A DNA stretch of 64,000 bases, taken from contig JARYMB010000004.1 of assembly GCA_029907345.1 (NCBI GenBank), positions 1 to 64,000 on the forward strand, given 5' to 3'. A program made the position numbers and the translations under genes. This DNA comes from Methanolinea sp. (GTDB lineage Archaea > Halobacteriota > Methanomicrobia > Methanomicrobiales > Methanospirillaceae). Below the pieces are notes generated by a model that was not told where the DNA came from, searched no databases, and saw only the letters and a list, made by a program, of their open reading frames with translations. The first letter of the stretch is position 1. Each line of letters begins with the position of its first letter. Below are positions 4,816-24,134 of this stretch, one piece after another.

Positions 4816-4982
4816 GTGTGGTAGTGTAATGAGCGTTAAAACCTTTTAAGTTTGTATATCTCAATGAAAAAACTACATATATTCCCAGACATAATGAAAA
4901 ACGTGGCATAATAATTGAAGGGGAGAGAAGGATACCAGCGGATTTTAAGAAAATAATTCAGGTTTTTCTGTTTCTTTTCGGG

Positions 4983-5882
4983 TTGGTTATTTTATTCTAT
5001 TTGATTATTTCATCGGGGATTATAAACAACCTCGAGGTTTTTTTCATTTTGAATTTTGGTTATTTTTTTCTGGCGATTTTCTTTTCAATAACTAATATTA
5101 TACTAAAAATCTACAGGTGGTATTATCTATCGGAACTTTTTCAAAAATCAATCTCATGGCAGGATGCCTCCATTATAACCCTTTCAAGTTTTTTTTATGC
5201 GAATATTACCCCTGGGAAAATTGGCGATTTGTTCAAGGCATATTACATGAGGGCAAAATACGGCCTTAATCTCCTGAATGGTATATCAATGATCTTCTTT
5301 GAGAGACTATTTGAGATTATTATTCTTTTTTTCTGTGCCCTTCTGATTGTATCGAGAGAGATCGATAATTCCACAATTATTATACTTCAATTCACAGCCG
5401 TTCTGATCATACTACTGATTGTCTTTTATTATAAATCTGAGTGGATAGTAAACGTTTTATCAAAAATTCTTGTAAAAATTACAGATAATGATAGGTTTAA
5501 CATTTCATTCTCACTTCAGAAGATATCTCCTTGTCATGTTGCTATCGTATTTCTCATAACGTTCCTTTCCCTTATCTGTGAATTTGTCCGTCTATGGTTA
5601 GTGGTTGCTGCATTTGGTTTTATTATTAATCCATGGGACATTGCTATCATCTTCAGCATCTCAATAATATTTGGCCTTATCTCCCAAATTCCCCTCGGCA
5701 TCGGGGTCATGGAAGGCTCCCTGAGTTTTTTATTGGAACGATTAGGAATTCCGATTCAATATTCCGTTCCTATTGTATTAATCGACAGAATGATTTCTAT
5801 GTATCTTGTTCTTGTGGTGGGGTTCATTGTATCTCATTTATCATGGAATGAATTAAGAAAATTGAAACCGGAGTCCCCATGA
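4983..5882 (+). CDS. Lysylphosphatidylglycerol synthase TM region/UPF0104 flippase-like membrane protein (true start probably further upstream)
   Basis: 299 aa hydrophobic ORF; WQDASIITLSSFFYANITPGKIGDLFKAYYMR and IPLGIGVMEGSLSFLLERLGI motifs. The reading frame stays open upstream of 4983. Confidence 0.8.
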   Translation: MVILFYLIISSGIINNLEVFFILNFGYFFLAIFFSITNIILKIYRWYYLSELFQKSISWQDASIITLSSFFYANITPGKIGDLFKAYYMRAKYGLNLLNGISMIFFERLFEIIILFFCALLIVSREIDNSTIIILQFTAVLIILLIVFYYKSEWIVNVLSKILVKITDNDRFNISFSLQKISPCHVAIVFLITFLSLICEFVRLWLVVAAFGFIINPWDIAIIFSISIIFGLISQIPLGIGVMEGSLSFLLERLGIPIQYSVPIVLIDRMISMYLVLVVGFIVSHLSWNELRKLKPESP

Positions 5883-6610
5883 TCTCGTTGATAATCCCAC
5901 TTTTTAATGAGGAGGATAATATACATCTCTACCGGGAGGAATTGTTTCCCGTTGTAAAAAAAATTTCTGAAAAATACAATCTTGGATTTGAATACATATT
6001 CGTTGATGATGGGAGTTCTGATAATACACGGGGAATTCTGGAAAACGTTTCTTACGATTTGGAGCATTGGAAATTAATTTCCCATGACAGAAACAGGGGA
6101 TTGGGTGCAGCGATCAAGACAGGGATTGAAAATTCGAGTGGTGATTGCATCATCTGTTTGGATGCTGACCTTACTTTCCGACCGGAAAATATCGAAGATT
6201 TACTATTAAAATTTTTCAAAACGAATGCAGATTGTATATCGGGTTCACCCTACCTTGAAAAAGAGCATATCATGGATGTTGAACCCCACCGGCTTTTTTT
6301 AAGCAAGTCAATAAATCTCATTTATCGTATTCTCCTTGGAAAAAGGATTACCTCTATCAGCCCGATTTTTCGTCTTTATAAAAAATCCGTTTTCAGAGAT
6401 ATGGAATTAAAAAGTAACAATTTTGAGATTAATGCTGAAATTCTCTCAAAACTCATTATCAATGGAAAAACAGTTGAAGAAATTCCCGTTCCCCTTTATA
6501 AAAGGAGGTACGGCTACTCCAAAATAAATGTGAAAAAAGAGATTATCAACAATATCATTTTAATTGGTAAAATAGTGAAAGTGAAATATTTCCATGGGTC
6601 ATGGTCATAA
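5879..6610 (+). CDS. Glycosyltransferase family 2 (dolichyl-phosphate mannosyltransferase-like)
   Basis: 243 aa; MISLIIPLFNEEDNI...YIFVDDGSSDNT...HDRNRGLGAAIKTGIENSSGDCIICLDADLTFRPENI; ATGA overlap with the upstream ORF. Confidence 0.92.
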   Translation: MISLIIPLFNEEDNIHLYREELFPVVKKISEKYNLGFEYIFVDDGSSDNTRGILENVSYDLEHWKLISHDRNRGLGAAIKTGIENSSGDCIICLDADLTFRPENIEDLLLKFFKTNADCISGSPYLEKEHIMDVEPHRLFLSKSINLIYRILLGKRITSISPIFRLYKKSVFRDMELKSNNFEINAEILSKLIINGKTVEEIPVPLYKRRYGYSKINVKKEIINNIILIGKIVKVKYFHGSWS

Positions 6611-6618
6611 TCTTCCCT

Positions 6619-8130
6619 TTAACCTACCTGGAACAGGTATATCCCGGTGTATTCTCCTATGAAACGACTATTTTGTTCCAGCCATTCGATGCTCGCACCC
6701 GATGGTTCTGATGCAGAAATATCGCGGGTTAATATGAAATAAATTCTTTTTCCCTGATAATCCCGGACTGCTTCTTCCAATTCCCTGATATTGGACGCCC
6801 CGATTTGCGTTGTATTATCCATCAATGGATCGTAATAATAGTTAAATGGATAATGTAAATATGCAGGCATGAGGACCACTACATCTCCATCATTTGTGTA
6901 ATTTTCAAATTCATGTGAAAAATCCCGCCAATTTTCTTTTGTATAGACTGTGTAGGTGGTTACCAGGAGAGGGACATGTAATAAGGCTATTCCAATAATC
7001 AGAATGAGAACTACCATCCTCTTCTTAAAAATATGGCAGAAGATTCGTGTCGAATATGCAATTCCCAAAAACAGGAAAGGTATCATGATATAAAAAAATC
7101 TTAACTCAAAGGGCATCTTAAAAGAAATGAAATAACTCATGAGAAAGATAGTCACAATTCCAAACAGTAAGAAGATCCCTTTTTTCCTCTCTTCATAGAG
7201 GCACCAGATAATTCCGATAATGAAGAGTATTGACAGGATTCCAACAAGAAGGAGATCACCCCCCAATAACGCGGGTATGGCATAAATAAGGACTATAATC
7301 CCACTAAGTCCATAGGTTGGACTTACAGCAGTCCTCTTTAAAAATAAGTCGAATGTGACAATTATCAAGGGAAGTGTAATAACAATGAAAGAGACCAAAA
7401 AAATTCCCAAGTTTTTCATATATTCTTTCTTTTTCTCCTTATCGAATATGATGAAGAATGAGCCGAAGAAAAGGAGGATACCAGGGATTAGTGCCGTGTA
7501 AAAATGGGTCCATAATGCCAGTCCTGAAAAAACACCGCAGAGAACCCAATGAGACACCTGGTTACGTGTAAGTCCCATGAAAAAGAGGAGGATAGCAAGG
7601 GATGCAAATAAGAGGGCCAGCGTATATGCCCTTGCTTCCTGGGAGTAGTACAGTAAAAAGATTGAAAATGTTGCCAGTGTGGCACATATTATACCTGAAT
7701 TCTTATCCTTGAATTCTTTTCCCAACAGGAAAAAAACGGGTATCAGGAGAGTCCCGGCAAGCGCAGGGATGGTTCTCAGGATTGCCTCTGAATTCCCGAA
7801 GTGGAGCATGAGAGACTCGATGAGATAGAAAAGGGGAGGATTGAACTCAGCCCCTGTTTCAAGAGACCCCCAAAGTTCAGAATAGGGGAGAGAGGCAAAG
7901 TGGTAAGTCATTGCTTCATCAAGCCAGAGGGAATTGAAACTAATATTATAGAATCTCAATAAAAAACCGGTAAATGTAAGAATAACTATGATTTGAACGT
8001 ATCTGTCTTTTAACAGGGAGGAGACGATGCTCTGAGTGGACCATGCGAAAGAATCCAACGAGGATGTATTCAAATCGCATGGATCTCTTGTCTTTTTTTC
8101 AAATCCTGAACTTTCCCTTCTTTTTGCCAT
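6619..8130 (-). CDS. Multi-pass ArnT/GT39-like glycosyltransferase
   Basis: 503 aa, many TMs; FNSLWLDEAMTYHFA... FNPPLFYLIESLMLHFGNSEAILRTIPALAGTLLIPVFFLLGKEF...YYSQEARAYTLALLFA. Confidence 0.88.
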   Translation of the reverse strand: MAKRRESSGFEKKTRDPCDLNTSSLDSFAWSTQSIVSSLLKDRYVQIIVILTFTGFLLRFYNISFNSLWLDEAMTYHFASLPYSELWGSLETGAEFNPPLFYLIESLMLHFGNSEAILRTIPALAGTLLIPVFFLLGKEFKDKNSGIICATLATFSIFLLYYSQEARAYTLALLFASLAILLFFMGLTRNQVSHWVLCGVFSGLALWTHFYTALIPGILLFFGSFFIIFDKEKKKEYMKNLGIFLVSFIVITLPLIIVTFDLFLKRTAVSPTYGLSGIIVLIYAIPALLGGDLLLVGILSILFIIGIIWCLYEERKKGIFLLFGIVTIFLMSYFISFKMPFELRFFYIMIPFLFLGIAYSTRIFCHIFKKRMVVLILIIGIALLHVPLLVTTYTVYTKENWRDFSHEFENYTNDGDVVVLMPAYLHYPFNYYYDPLMDNTTQIGASNIRELEEAVRDYQGKRIYFILTRDISASEPSGASIEWLEQNSRFIGEYTGIYLFQVG

Positions 8131-8244
8131 TACATGCTATAATGAATCGGATTCTATAAAGATATCCAATTTTTTATTCTCCCTGCAACTTGGAGGGACA
8201 ATCTTTGGAGGCCGCATAGACTTGGTTAAACAGGATAATTTTTT

Positions 8245-17894: not shown

Positions 17895-18018
17895 ACCATG
17901 CAAGGGCAAAAGTGGCTACCCGCATGACGTACAAAAGCCTGCGAGGCATTATTTCCAGTGCAGGTGAATACCGGAAAATAGCTTGCTTTTTATTGGAATC
18001 GGATTATAATGAGCTCTG

Positions 18019-18040
18019 TCGAGTGGAAATAAAGGGGTTA
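18019..18040 (+). promoter_or_regulatory. Outlying ORB-like box upstream of hel308
   Basis: TCGAGTGGAAATAAAGGGGTTA matches the ORB-like core of the 22.4-22.8 kb boxes (CCAGTGGAAATRAAGGGGTT) except at 1 core position. Confidence 0.5.
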
Positions 18041-18043
18041 TAA

Positions 18044-20221
18044 ATGAGGGTGAGAGATCTCCCGCTTCCCGGCTACCTGCTGGACATCTATGCCAGCCTC
18101 GGCATCAACGATCTCTACCCCCCGCAGGCAGAGTGCGTCCGGAAGGGTCTCTTCGAAGGAAAGAACATCCTCCTCGCAGTCCCCACTGCAAGCGGAAAGA
18201 CGCTGGTCGCCGAGATGGCCATGCACCACCATATCTCCCGGGGAGGAAAGTGCCTGTACATCGTCCCCCTCAAGGCCCTGGCAAGCGAGAAGTACGAGGA
18301 CTTTGCCCGTAAAAAGGTCCGGGTAGGTATTTCGACCGGTGACTTCGACCGCCGGGATGAAAATCTCGGGCGGAATGATATCATCGTGGCCACGAGCGAG
18401 AAGGTTGACTCGCTGATACGCAACCGGGCACACTGGATACCGTCAATCACGCTCCTCGTCGTGGACGAGGTGCACCTCATCGACGATCCCCACCGGGGCC
18501 CGACTCTCGAGATGGTCATCACGAAGATGCGGGCAAGAAACGGGAATCTCCAGGTTATTGCCCTCTCCGCAACGATAGGAAACCCGGGCGCACTCGCCGG
18601 CTGGCTCGATGCCGAGGTGGTGACAGGGTCGTGGCGCCCGGTCGATCTCCGCCAGGGCGTCTATTGCAACGGCAAGATCTGTTTCGGCAAAGAAACCCGG
18701 AAAGTGCCTCCTGTGTCGAAGAACGAGGATATCAATCTCCTCCTCGACACGGTGGCGGAGGGCGGGCAGTGCCTCGTCTTCGTCGCGTCGCGCAGGAATG
18801 CCGAGGCATATGCGCGGAGGGCGGCAGCAGCACTTAAATGCACGGATCCGGCTCTGGACGAGTACGCTGCCCGCTTGAAGAAGGCTGCCCTGACCGGCAA
18901 CGAGGAGTCCCTTGCCTCCTGCGTCGCCCTGGGTGCGGCGTTTCACCATGCCGGGCTCTCCCGGGAGTCCCGGGCAATCGTGGAGGAGGGGTTCAGGAAA
19001 GGGCTGGTCCGGTGCATCGCATCCACCCCGACCCTCGCTGCCGGGTTGAACCTCCCTGCCCGGCGGGTCATTGTCCGCGATTTCCGCCGGTTCGAGGCCG
19101 GGCAGGGGATGGTCCCCATCCCGGCCCGCGAATATCACCAGATGGCAGGCCGGGCAGGGCGGCCGGGTCTTGACCCCTACGGGGAGGCTGTACTCATCGC
19201 GCGGGACGCGGATGAGGCCCGGGAACTTGAAGAATTCTACATCAATGCCTCTCCCGAGGATGTGCACTCCCGGTGCGCGGACGAGTCCGCGCTGATAACA
19301 CACATCCTGTCACTGATCGCATCCGGTTTTGCCCGAACGCACGATGACCTGGTTCAGTTCCTGCGGAGGACGTTTTACCATTACCAGCACAAAAAGAGCA
19401 GCATCATGGAGGCTGTCACGAATAAATCCCTGGATTTTCTCGAGAGGGCCGGGATGATCACGAACCTCTCCGATCACCTGGCCGCAACAGAGTACGGAAA
19501 CCTGGTCTCCCTCCTCTACATCGATCCGCGGGGTGCAGAGACAATCGTCTCGGGAATCGCCTCAGCAGAGAACTACTCGGATATGGGCCTCCTCCACCTC
19601 ATCTGCAGCACGCCGGACATGTTCTGCCTGTATGCCAGCAACAGGGACCTCCCCGTCCTGGAGAGGTACCTTCTCGAGAACGAGGATGAACTCTGGCTGA
19701 CACTGGGCTTTGGCGAGGAGGAGACCTTCTTCCGTGCCCTCAAGACCGCCCTTGTCCTCCGGGACTGGGCTGGCGAGGTCCCCATCGAGACCATATGCGA
19801 AAGGTACTCCATAGGCCCGGGAGATGTCCATGCCCTCGTCGAGAGCTGCAACTGGCTCCTCCATGCCTCGGGCCGCCTTTCCTCGTTATATGCGCCCCGC
19901 TTCACCCGGGCAATCCGCGAGTTCGAGATCTGCATGAAGCATGGTGTCAGGCGGGAACTCCTGCCGCTCGTCAGGCTCCGCAATATCGGCCGGGTACGGG
20001 CGCGGAGCCTCTATTCCAACGGGATAACGTCTCCGGACGCCATTCGTGCCGCGGATCCGAGGGTGCTTGCGTCCATCCTCGGCCGCGGGATTGCCCAGTC
20101 TGTCCTGCAGCAGCTGGACCTGGAGAGTGCCAGTGGCCCCGGCAATCGCACAGGGGACGAAGAGGGAGAAAATGGCCTTCACGACCAGTCCCGTCTTGAC
20201 GCCTTCAACGGGGTGATCTGA
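18044..20221 (+). CDS. hel308: Hel308-family Ski2-type DNA helicase
   Basis: 725 aa; [13 protein letters not shown]...[17 protein letters not shown]...ALSATIGNP...[22 protein letters not shown]...[26 protein letters not shown]. Confidence 0.95.
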
Positions 20222-20734
20222 ATGGAGACATTTTCCATTCGGAAGGTGAGGGTCACAATCGATGACCTGGAGGGGTTTCTCCAAAAGATTAACGGTATCG
20301 CAGCCCGGGCAGGGACTCATATCATCCTCTTCGATGCAGGCAGTATGGCAGGATCTGCCCATGCCATGTCTGCCCTCCGCCACGCCTTCCGGGCACTGGA
20401 AAACGGCACGATGATCTCGGCGAGAGTGGAAGTGGAGGCCCTCCTCTATGCAGCAGGGTCACGACAGATCGTGGAGGGAACACGGTTCGGTGTCCACGCG
20501 GGGGAAAACCAGGCATACCTCTGCATCTGCCCGGAGAACGATGCGGCATGGAGGGAACTTGCACCCCTGTTTAGTCCTGCCGACGACGAGGACTGGGAGA
20601 CCATTACTCCGGAAAAGGCAGCCCTTCTCTGTTCGCTCTTCTCCATCACCCCCCGTGAGCTCGAAGTCTGCGGGATCGAGAGGGTGGCGGATCTTGTCCT
20701 GGAGAGGGTGGCACTCCTCGAAGTATACCGGTAG
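20222..20734 (+). CDS. cgi121: KEOPS complex subunit Cgi121
   Basis: 170 aa; LFDAGSMAGSAHAMSALRHAFRALENGTMISARVEVEALLYAAGSRQIVEGTRFGVHAGEN...; typical archaeal Cgi121. Confidence 0.92.
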   Translation: METFSIRKVRVTIDDLEGFLQKINGIAARAGTHIILFDAGSMAGSAHAMSALRHAFRALENGTMISARVEVEALLYAAGSRQIVEGTRFGVHAGENQAYLCICPENDAAWRELAPLFSPADDEDWETITPEKAALLCSLFSITPRELEVCGIERVADLVLERVALLEVYR

Positions 20735-20980
20735 AGGGTGCCCTGGCCGGGGGTACATTTACCGGTCTTTTTTACCTGTCTGCCATGTTTTCCCGCAGTT
20801 TTCCTGGCTGATTCAAGGCCATGGGAAACGGTATCCGGAACGAATCCATATGAGCGCAGTTTTTCCCGTTATTGCGGGTATTGGGGGTGATGCCTGAAGA
20901 GGGATAATCGTGACCGGATAAAAGATTTTCAGAAATACAGAGACGTGATCCAGAAATGGCGATCCCAGGCCACCGTGAAA

Positions 20981-21478
20981 TCAATGATCTCTCTTCCTTG
21001 CATGCGATACGATGTGACGCAATTCCGGAAGAATGATCTCCTTCATGGCAAGTGTCACCGCCGGTGTCGATCCCGGGAGACAGAAAACGATTCTCTCTCC
21101 ACACGTCCCTGCAACAGCTCTCGATAAAATTGCTGCCGTGCCGATATCTGCATAACTTTTCTGCCTGAATATCTCTCCGAATCCATCGATTACCTTGTCC
21201 AGAAGAGGGACCACCGCTTCAATGGTACAGTCATCGGGCGAGATGCCCGTTCCCCCGTTGAGGATGATGCAATTGCAGCCATCGAGGACCGCATGGAGCT
21301 CTCTCCGGATCATCATGATATCATCTTTGACGAGAGAATAGTGGAGAACTGGGATGTTTGCTCCTTCCAGGAGGGAAAGGATCGCTTTTCCGCTTTCGTC
21401 TGTGTCCCTGGTCCGCGAGGTGGATACGGTGATTATTGCCGCACTGATGTCAACGGATTTTTCATGTTCCTTTTTCAT
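20981..21478 (-). CDS. moaB: MoaB/Mog-type molybdopterin biosynthesis protein
   Basis: 165 aa; AAIITVSTSRTRDTDESGKAI...CIILNGGTGISPDDCTIEAV...FCLPGSTPAVTLAM. Confidence 0.92.
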   Translation of the reverse strand: MKKEHEKSVDISAAIITVSTSRTRDTDESGKAILSLLEGANIPVLHYSLVKDDIMMIRRELHAVLDGCNCIILNGGTGISPDDCTIEAVVPLLDKVIDGFGEIFRQKSYADIGTAAILSRAVAGTCGERIVFCLPGSTPAVTLAMKEIILPELRHIVSHARKRDH

Positions 21479-21562
21479 TGGTACCTGATTCGTTTCTTCG
21501 AAAGATTAAACAATTTTCCTTTGTGCTGAACAATTTTTTGACCATGAGTGAGGATGGGAACC

Positions 21563-21584
21563 GACCCTTTTATTTCCACTGGAA
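21563..21584 (-). promoter_or_regulatory. ORB-like box (outer, minus orientation)
   Basis: GACCCTTTTATTTCCACTGGAA, reverse complement TTCCAGTGGAAATAAAAGGGTC. Confidence 0.6.
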
Positions 21585-21631
21585 ATGGGAGGGTTCCAGG
21601 AATGTTTTCTAAAGGGAGATGGCAGGTTTCC

Positions 21632-21875
21632 AACCTGCACATGCAGGAAAGCCAGGAAGGGGAGGCGTTCATTCTGTTACGTGCTCTCCCCAAATCTGCA
21701 CACGCAGGAAAGCCGATAAAGGGAGGCGTTCGTCCTGTTACGTGCACTCCCCCAATCTGCACATGCAGGAAAGCCGATAAAGGGAGGCGTTCGTCCTGTT
21801 ACGTGCACTCCCCCAATCTGCACATGCAGAAGAGTCAGGAAGGGGAGGAGTATGTCCTGTTACGAGCTCTTCCTT
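21632..21875. repeat. 61-bp tandem repeat, 4 units
   Basis: CTGCACAYGCAG cores start at 21635, 21696, 21757 and 21818, exactly 61 bp apart. Unit aatctgcacatgcaggaaagccgataaagggaggcgttcgtcctgttacgtgcactccccc. Units 2 and 3 differ at a single position; units 1 and 4 are more diverged. Confidence 0.95.
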
Positions 21876-21934
21876 CTAAAATGTGCTTATTTGGATGATT
21901 GTTCCGAAGCAAATCATTTTTCCGAGGCATTTTT

Positions 21935-22159
21935 GGCTCTTCGCCAATCTGAGCGGGTAATGAGAACCCAATGTGGGGGCCGGTCGCCCCCACACCCCCC
22001 ACGGGGATGGTCCCGCCGCCCCTAAAAAATGCGCCCCGGCGGCGGTTTCACGAAGGGTTTCATAGAAAGTCTGTGTTTCTTCTTTGAACAAACCAATTCA
22101 AAACGAAGAAAGAATGTCATGCACTCATGCAACTTACCCACCCAAAATGATGAAGAGGC
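21935..22159 (+). mobile_element. MITE-like interspersed repeat, copy 2
   Basis: Same element as 8245-8468, same orientation. Termini GGCTCTTCGCCAATCTGAGCGGGTAA / TTACCCACCCAAAATGATGAAGAGGC (19/26 inverted-repeat match). Flanks GCATTTTT (21927-21934) / ACATTTTT (22160-22167). Confidence 0.75.
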
Positions 22160-22416
22160 ACATTTTTTTACAACACCTCTTTCATCAGGACCTCAATAGG
22201 TCAATCAGCCAATATGGAGCTGATTCATTGTTCCATTTTCATGTGGACTCCAGGGGGATTAATCAGGTGTCAGTTCACGGGGCGTGTGGATAAGCAAAAG
22301 GATCAGGGGTTGCATTTCTATATTTTCACGTTGTATCTCTATTCCGGAACGTCATCCTCTGATATTTATTGAGGTTTTGGGGACTTGTAAAATCCGTCCC
22401 TCATCTATTTCCGGGG

Positions 22417-22438
22417 AACCCCTTTATTTCCACTGGAG
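22417..22438 (-). promoter_or_regulatory. ORB-like box
   Basis: AACCCCTTTATTTCCACTGGAG; reverse complement CTCCAGTGGAAATAAAGGGGTT. Confidence 0.85.
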
Positions 22439-22624
22439 AAGGGGGTGCAGATCTCTTTTTTTCATTGTCTTTTCCATCACATTACTATAGAGTCCCGGGT
22501 TATGGAATGTATATCCCAATTGAGGTCTGGAACATTTCAGTAAGATTTTATAAAAGAAAAGGAAAATAAAAAATGAATTGTTCCTGTTCTAACTAAACTT
22601 CATAATGTGAAGTTCATTCCAATT

Positions 22625-22647
22625 TTCCAGTCGAAATCATGGGGTCC
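22625..22647 (+). promoter_or_regulatory. Degenerate ORB-like box
   Basis: TTCCAGTCGAAATCATGGGGTCC; about 3 differences from the CCAGTGGAAATGAAGGGGT core. Confidence 0.55.
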
Positions 22648-22759
22648 CCCCCCTCGAAAAGAATGTTTTTGGCAGTCCTATGGAAATAAACGTTTTTCAC
22701 ATCAGCCAGAATCCTCATAAAAATTGGATTCTCCTTCCAATAGACTCACACCAGACTTT

Positions 22760-22782
22760 CTCCAGTGGAAATGAAGGGGTTT
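22760..22782 (+). promoter_or_regulatory. ORB-like box
   Basis: CTCCAGTGGAAATGAAGGGGTTT, ~70 bp upstream of the orc1/cdc6 start. Confidence 0.85.
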
Positions 22783-22850
22783 ATATCAGGTTCAAACAGC
22801 TGACTTTTTGAGTGTTGGCAGGGATATGATCATCTCCCAGGGGGTCAGGG

Positions 22851-24134
22851 ATGTCAGACGACCAGAGTGCAGCAGTCGGGCTTTTCAAAAAATATCTGGA
22901 GACAAACAGGATATTTAAGAACAGGGAGGTCCTGCGCCATTCCTACAGGCCCCATATCCTTCCCCACAGGCGGCCACAGATAGACCAGGTCGCAGCAATC
23001 CTTGCACCTTCACTCCGGAACGAGACCCCCTCGAATATCCTCATCTATGGCAAGACCGGAACAGGGAAAACAGCGGTTGTACGCTACGTCGGGTCGGAAC
23101 TCGAGACTGCAGGGAGCCACATGGGAACAGTCTGCAGGGTCGTCCACCTCAACTGCGAGGTGATTGACACCCAGTACCGTGTGCTCGCACAGATATCAAA
23201 GACACTCCTTGGCGAGGACGAAACGGCAAGCGACAAGGCCCGGACCCACATCCCCATGACAGGTTGGCCGACTGACCAGGTCTATGCCGAACTCAAGAAC
23301 CAGCTCGAGGGCATGGGGGGAGTCCTCATCATCGTTCTCGACGAGATTGACAAACTCGTCAAGAAGAGCGGCGACGAAACCCTCTACAACCTCTCCCGAA
23401 TCAACTCCGACCTGAAAAAATCCAAAGTGAGTATGATCGGGATCTCGAATGACCTCTCCTTCAAGGATTTCCTCGATCCAAGGGTCCTGTCCTCTCTCTC
23501 CGAAGAGGAACTCGTCTTCCCGCCCTACAATGCCCCCCAGCTCTGCGACATCCTGAAGCAGCGCGCAGAGATAGCATTCCTCGAGGGGGTCCTCGACGAG
23601 GGGGTAATACCGCTCTGCGCGGCTCTCGCGGCCCAGGAACACGGGGATGCGCGCCGGGCCCTCGACCTTCTCCGCGTATCGGGAGAGATTGCCGACAGGG
23701 AAGAGGCCAGCCGCGTCACGGAGGCTCACGTGAAGATGGCCCAGGCAAAGATCGAGACGGACTCGATGATCGAGTGTATCGCGACACTGCCCACCCAGAG
23801 CAAGGTCGTCCTCTACGCCATGCTCCTCCTCGACCAGATGGGCCAGACCATCTTCACGAGCGGGGAGGTGAGCAGGATCTACAAGGAGATTGCACCCTCT
23901 CTTGACCTTGATATCCTCACGCACCGGAGGATCACGGACCTCATTTCCGAGCTGAACATGCTCGGGGTCATCAACACCCGCGTGGTGAGCCGGGGTCGCT
24001 ACGGCAGGACAAAAGAGATGTGGTTTGATACGAATACACGTAAGATATGGGATGTGATCACCTCGGATGCCCGCTTAAGTGCCCAGGGTATCGCCGAGAG
24101 GGACGTCCAGTGGTGCAGATCCCTTTTCAGGTGA
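22851..24134 (+). CDS. cdc6: ORC1-type DNA replication protein (Orc1/Cdc6)
   Basis: 427 aa; Walker A IYGKTGTGKTAVV, Walker B ILIIVLDEIDKL, sensor GISNDLSFKDFLDPRVLSSL, C-terminal winged helix. Confidence 0.97.
   Translation: MSDDQSAAVGLFKKYLETNRIFKNREVLRHSYRPHILPHRRPQIDQVAAILAPSLRNETPSNILIYGKTGTGKTAVVRYVGSELETAGSHMGTVCRVVHLNCEVIDTQYRVLAQISKTLLGEDETASDKARTHIPMTGWPTDQVYAELKNQLEGMGGVLIIVLDEIDKLVKKSGDETLYNLSRINSDLKKSKVSMIGISNDLSFKDFLDPRVLSSLSEEELVFPPYNAPQLCDILKQRAEIAFLEGVLDEGVIPLCAALAAQEHGDARRALDLLRVSGEIADREEASRVTEAHVKMAQAKIETDSMIECIATLPTQSKVVLYAMLLLDQMGQTIFTSGEVSRIYKEIAPSLDLDILTHRRITDLISELNMLGVINTRVVSRGRYGRTKEMWFDTNTRKIWDVITSDARLSAQGIAERDVQWCRSLFR

Follow-up and report, generated by a model that had tools for sequence, protein, structure and literature searches.

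Features of a probable Orc1-dependent replication origin in a Methanolinea-like archaeon and of an ORB-like box conserved at hel308

Archaeal origins and the locus under study

In Pyrococcus oriC, Sulfolobus oriC1, haloarchaeal oriC1 and the Methanomicrobia class of DoriC/Ori-Finder 2, origin recognition boxes (ORBs) carrying a G-string are arranged in inverted orientation around an A+T block (PMC4164010, PMC4010727). For the Methanomicrobia, Ori-Finder 2 gives the box as TCCA[GC]T[GT]GAAA[CT][AG]A[AT]GGGGT (PMC4164010). Orc1 occupies the ORB with a fixed polarity, in which the winged helix meets the dyad and the ISM the G-string, with recruitment of MCM (PMC7776575, PMC9738581); arginine pairs of the winged helix make the ORB contacts in initiators (PMC9738581).

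ORBs and proteins of the Orc1 family also have regulatory roles. The ORB cluster downstream of Haloarcula hispanica oriC2 exerts a negative regulation on the origin (PMC4010727), and Saccharolobus Orc1-2 is an Orc1-family regulator of transcription upon DNA damage, which binds promoters and controls damage-response genes (PMC9738581). Bacterial DnaA is likewise an initiator that acts at its own and at other promoters (PMC8203912).

The stretch of DNA analysed here (the window) covers positions 1 to 64,000 of contig C44 (123,658 bp) of a Methanolinea-like metagenome-assembled genome (MAG) of the Methanomicrobiales. This host MAG (1.86 Mb in 61 contigs, 88% complete) defines the scope of our genome-wide box counts. 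Methanolinea MAGs are the closest of its named relatives, with an orc1 identity of 99% to the nearest and of 90-94% to most congeners.

The intergenic region upstream of orc1/cdc6 shares with the origins listed above the G-string ORBs inverted around an A+T block, and with orc1/cdc6-adjacent archaeal origins in general the position beside that gene and the nearness to a skew extreme (PMC4164010, PMC4010727). It differs in no respect of kind from known archaeal oriCs and, as an origin, is ordinary and one more of a known type; what is local to it are a half-box near 22675 and, at 21563-21595, a head-to-head double box. As a well-supported archaeal oriC, together with the map of boxes in its relatives, it is useful for marker-frequency work in Methanomicrobiales.

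Anatomy of the region upstream of orc1

Boxes were scored with a position weight matrix (PWM) trained on 126 boxes found upstream of orc1 in relatives together with the window's own boxes. The features of the region are as follows.

21563..21584, minus strand: outer ORB (PWM 36.6); an outer minus box lies at -630 to -1300 in relatives
21574..21595, plus strand: weak box (PWM 25.1), head-to-head with 21563-21584 and sharing its dyad
22417..22438, minus strand: exact ORB match and inverted partner on the other side of the A+T block; most congeners have a counterpart at about -460
22545..22604, no strand: A+T-rich block (80% A+T), candidate duplex unwinding element; TTTTAT..AAA core kept in 11 loci
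22625..22647, plus strand: degenerate ORB (PWM 30.0, fourth best in the contig)
22675..22699, plus strand: conserved half-box TCCTATGGAAATAAACGTTTTTCAC, without G-string; its GGAAA and TTTCA columns are invariant among 11 aligned Methanolinea loci
22760..22782, plus strand: proximal ORB at -91 from the orc1 ATG, matching the Methanomicrobia ORB of Ori-Finder 2 exactly
22851..24134, plus strand: orc1/cdc6 initiator gene, 427 aa; NCBIfam NF001625 (ORC1-type DNA replication protein), E=2e-180

A preliminary description of this DNA had named the boxes at 22417, 22625 and 22760, and all three are present and correct to the base. Its view that they fit the archaeal ORB theme holds as well, since the boxes at 22417 and 22760 are both exact instances of the Ori-Finder 2 Methanomicrobia expression and the motif of the window equals that ORB. 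The inventory was otherwise incomplete, as it lacked the double box 21563(-)/21574(+), the half-box near 22675 and a further box at 18018 that is treated below. The opposed layout around the A+T block, also part of that description, stands with one correction: the inner pair is formed by 22417(-) and 22625(+), and 22760(+), which had been set against 22417, is the outer plus box.

Two plus boxes (22625 and 22760) lie on the orc1 side of the A+T block, and the minus box at 22417 and the double box 21563(-)/21574(+) lie on the far side. As read from the sequence, the dyads point toward the block and the G-strings outward, with the weak 21574(+) box as the exception. The conspicuous A+T-rich stretch noted earlier is real, and its 60 bp at 22545-22604 are the least stable of the intergenic region; the same block ranks only about ninth in the contig, however, so that a high A+T content does not by itself set it apart.

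When 11 Methanolinea loci are aligned, most invariant columns of the intergenic region belong to the boxes, the half-box, the A+T core or the 30 bp that precede the ATG. In most Methanolinea genomes the proximal ORB lies at -89/-91, and all 11 loci share GGGGTTTAT unchanged; the counterpart of the 22625 ORB, often reading TTCCAGTGGAAACAAAGGGGTC, lies at -222 in relatives and is intact in most congeners. Conservation extends to the half-box near 22675, TCCTATGGAAA. Next to the outer ORB at 21563, within the intergenic region on the origin side, a 61-bp unit (CCAATCTGCACATGCAGG...) is tandemly repeated in 3.9 copies over 21630-21864.

The open reading frame that had been placed at 22851 is confirmed by its profile match. 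The best solved relatives of its product are Saccharolobus Orc1-1 (2qby_A) and Aeropyrum Orc1 (2v1u_A), both of them DNA-bound initiators, and both winged-helix arginine pairs (HRR and RGR) are retained. The gene is therefore an initiator-type orc1, and it adjoins the box region as in other archaeal oriCs. At the aligned positions of the Orc paralogue on contig C2, both pairs are missing. Orc1 paralogues or fragments that belong to another Orc subfamily (NF001624/NF001626) lie in the host genome at C2:43148, C61:6111 and C42:2298. A second origin at these paralogues was considered and rejected, as no ORB lies nearby and the best PWM scores are all negative (maximum -5.0).

Evidence for an origin of replication

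The PWM scan that had been suggested for ORBs, run on the 123.7-kb contig, places its six best sites at 18018-22760 with scores of 25-40, the next best site scoring 10.1. Since the window's boxes sit in the training set of the matrix, counts of the 22-mer provide an independent test of uniqueness: at up to three mismatches, the window holds four matches against none in 100 dinucleotide shuffles of it, and the whole 1.86-Mb genome holds only the sites at 18018, 21563, 22417 and 22760, all of them in the window. The equally good boxes throughout the genome that would have spoken against an origin are thus not found, strict boxes being present only near orc1 and hel308. Shuffles, genome-wide counts and conservation together rule out a chance occurrence, and the confinement of the boxes to these two genes rules out a repeat family or mobile element.

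Position and orientation of the origin boxes are conserved through Methanolinea and also in other families, and a stricter pattern finds matches in 22 of 22 genomes scanned, most of which cluster no more than a few kb from orc1. In Methanoculleus and some other relatives an additional inverted ORB pair lies downstream of orc1, which thus has boxes on both sides; in the Methanoculleus-type loci (L094, L096, L099, L108 and L114) the two boxes of this pair are about 220 bp apart, at about +3.05 and +3.27 kb relative to the start of orc1. At the sensitivity used, such a downstream pair is absent from the window. Several genomes of genus g21 carry a perfect ORB, TCCAGTGGAAATCAAGGGGT, about 0.55 Mb from orc1 (G061:C1:632896, G070:C1:944365, G093:C1:633406 and G113:C1:764379). 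The remote exact boxes of G016 (221057) and G034 (151165) have unrelated neighbours (htpX-like and grpE-like by eye) that share no theme.

A skew inflection had been predicted at about 22.5 kb of the window. As the host MAG is in 61 contigs, the skew was followed at the level of the contig and in a relative, and both are in keeping with the prediction. Cumulative GC skew of the contig reaches its minimum at 23,979, with a slope of -0.003 to the left and +0.015 to the right, a turn with a block permutation p of 0.014. In G024, a member of the same family with a complete chromosome of 2.38 Mb, the minimum (1,372,428) and orc1 (1,415,666) are 43 kb or 1.8% apart, the maximum lies about 1 Mb away, and in a half-chromosome contrast the origin takes rank 16 among 477 positions. 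This distance and this rank make the skew supportive of an origin without fixing its position precisely.

Box sequence, orientation and spacing, the A+T block, the initiator-type orc1, uniqueness, conservation, motif identity and skew all fit an origin, in support of the earlier interpretation as an archaeal oriC. In our judgement, 22417-22850, or more fully about 21560-22850, is very probably an Orc1-dependent chromosomal replication origin. By analogy with known archaeal origins, Orc1 would bind the boxes with a fixed polarity on both sides of the A+T block, the block would then melt, and the MCM helicase would be loaded there.

The proximal box could also serve the orc1 gene. A TATA-like element, TTTATATC, lies directly 3' of the ORB at 22760-22782, and since the box abuts this probable orc1 promoter element, Orc1 probably limits its own transcription. 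This contact and the fixed distance of the box from the orc1 ATG would also be expected if the boxes were operators for autoregulation only and replication started elsewhere. Such a reading is, however, extremely improbable: at least four boxes, reaching up to 1.3 kb upstream and inverted around an A+T block, exceed the needs of an operator, the genome is devoid of any other box cluster, and the GC skew turns at the orc1 locus.

The ORB-like box at the start of hel308

Two further features lie upstream of the origin region.

18018..18039, plus strand: ORB-like box, 26 bp upstream of the hel308 ATG at 18044 and ending 4 bp before it
18044..20221, plus strand: hel308 helicase gene, 725 aa; NF002654, E=0; Hel308 model NF040935, E=3e-161

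In 42 of 50 relatives, the 90 bp upstream of hel308 contain an ORB-like site on the plus strand, which in most cases begins at -25/-26. The remaining eight, including G016, G018, G023, G033 and G034, are without the box, which is therefore not indispensable. In its dyad, the TCC of the ORB reads TCG in the window and usually TGG in Methanolinea congeners, and some other families have a full ORB at hel308 (in family f6 at -34 to -44, with scores of 35-38). A strict pattern anchored on the start codon, TGGAAWNNANGGGGTN{1,6}ATG, was searched in 99 Methanomicrobiales genomes and gave 71 matches, 43 of them at the hel308 start (39 with the identical ATG), 17 near orc1 and 11 elsewhere; the reversed control gave one match. 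In other orders of the phylum, 16 genomes have matches to this spelling of the pattern, none of them at hel308. No earlier report of the hel308 box was found in the literature searched, which misses most subscription journals.

The AAGGGG some 8 bp ahead of the hel308 start codon raises the idea that the box is a translation signal, a G-run for ribosome binding that resembles an ORB by chance. The 5' half of the box, TGGAAA, is conserved too, however; the pattern followed by ATG occurs at only 11 sites other than the origin and hel308 in the 99 genomes; and in several families, f6 among them, full-score ORBs lie further from the start codon. We therefore consider a translation signal very unlikely.

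It might also be asked whether the box, rather than controlling hel308, belongs to the same origin as one of its outlying elements. The box is usually found 3.7-6 kb from orc1 and on the same strand, and outlying origin boxes do exist, as in the inverted pair 3 kb downstream of orc1 in Methanoculleus relatives. The box nevertheless keeps a constant distance from the hel308 ATG, whereas orc1 lies anywhere between 3.7 and 10.8 kb away, with 10.8 kb in G039 and G044. Where hel308 has moved, the box has travelled with it, to 22.7 kb from orc1 and the opposite strand in G098 and to a contig other than that of orc1 in G079, G089 and G109; an origin element would be expected to stay behind. The hel308 box is, moreover, single and has no inverted partner. 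Taken together, these observations leave the outlying element as an unlikely explanation.

A box that is constant relative to the gene and independent of its distance from the origin is what would be expected of a gene under Orc1 control. In line with this notion, Orc1 may control hel308 through the ORB-like box, a function distinct from that at the origin, although we regard the matter as evenly balanced. Two candidate TATA elements lie upstream of hel308, TTTTTATT near -55 and TTATAATG near -38, and from their positions the transcription start would fall at or just upstream of the box, so that a protein bound there would stand in the way of transcription. In its simplest form, the control would thus be a repression by Orc1 occupying promoter-proximal or leader DNA. 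The altered Methanolinea dyad could be expected to weaken binding and, speculatively, hel308 would then respond only at high Orc1.

Extended to the order, the proposal is that across Methanomicrobiales Orc1 directly controls a fork-restart helicase through the box at the hel308 start, coupling the level or activity of the initiator to the rescue of stalled forks; conservation of the box suggests such a coupling, to which we give even weight for and against. Here, as in Haloarcula hispanica oriC2, a regulatory role is given to ORBs away from the unwinding region, but the element lies 4.8 kb upstream of orc1 and is a single box at the hel308 start codon, in place of a downstream cluster. Saccharolobus Orc1-2 offers a precedent for gene control by the Orc1 family; that protein, however, is a non-initiator that lacks the four winged-helix arginines and binds ANTTTC, whereas the hel308 element is the initiator's own ORB. 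If the proposal is true, an archaeal replication initiator would use its own origin box to control a fork-repair gene, an idea comparable to bacterial DnaA, although an unrelated binding site and another domain of life make this an analogy only. The conserved box at hel308, a precise 22-bp element for mutation, is the part worth following, with moderate confidence.

Elsewhere in the window, a low-GC island at 4900-8200 (35-45% GC versus about 58%) holds reading frames that, by the look of their sequence, encode a flippase-like membrane protein, a glycosyltransferase-like protein and a large membrane glycosyltransferase-like protein.
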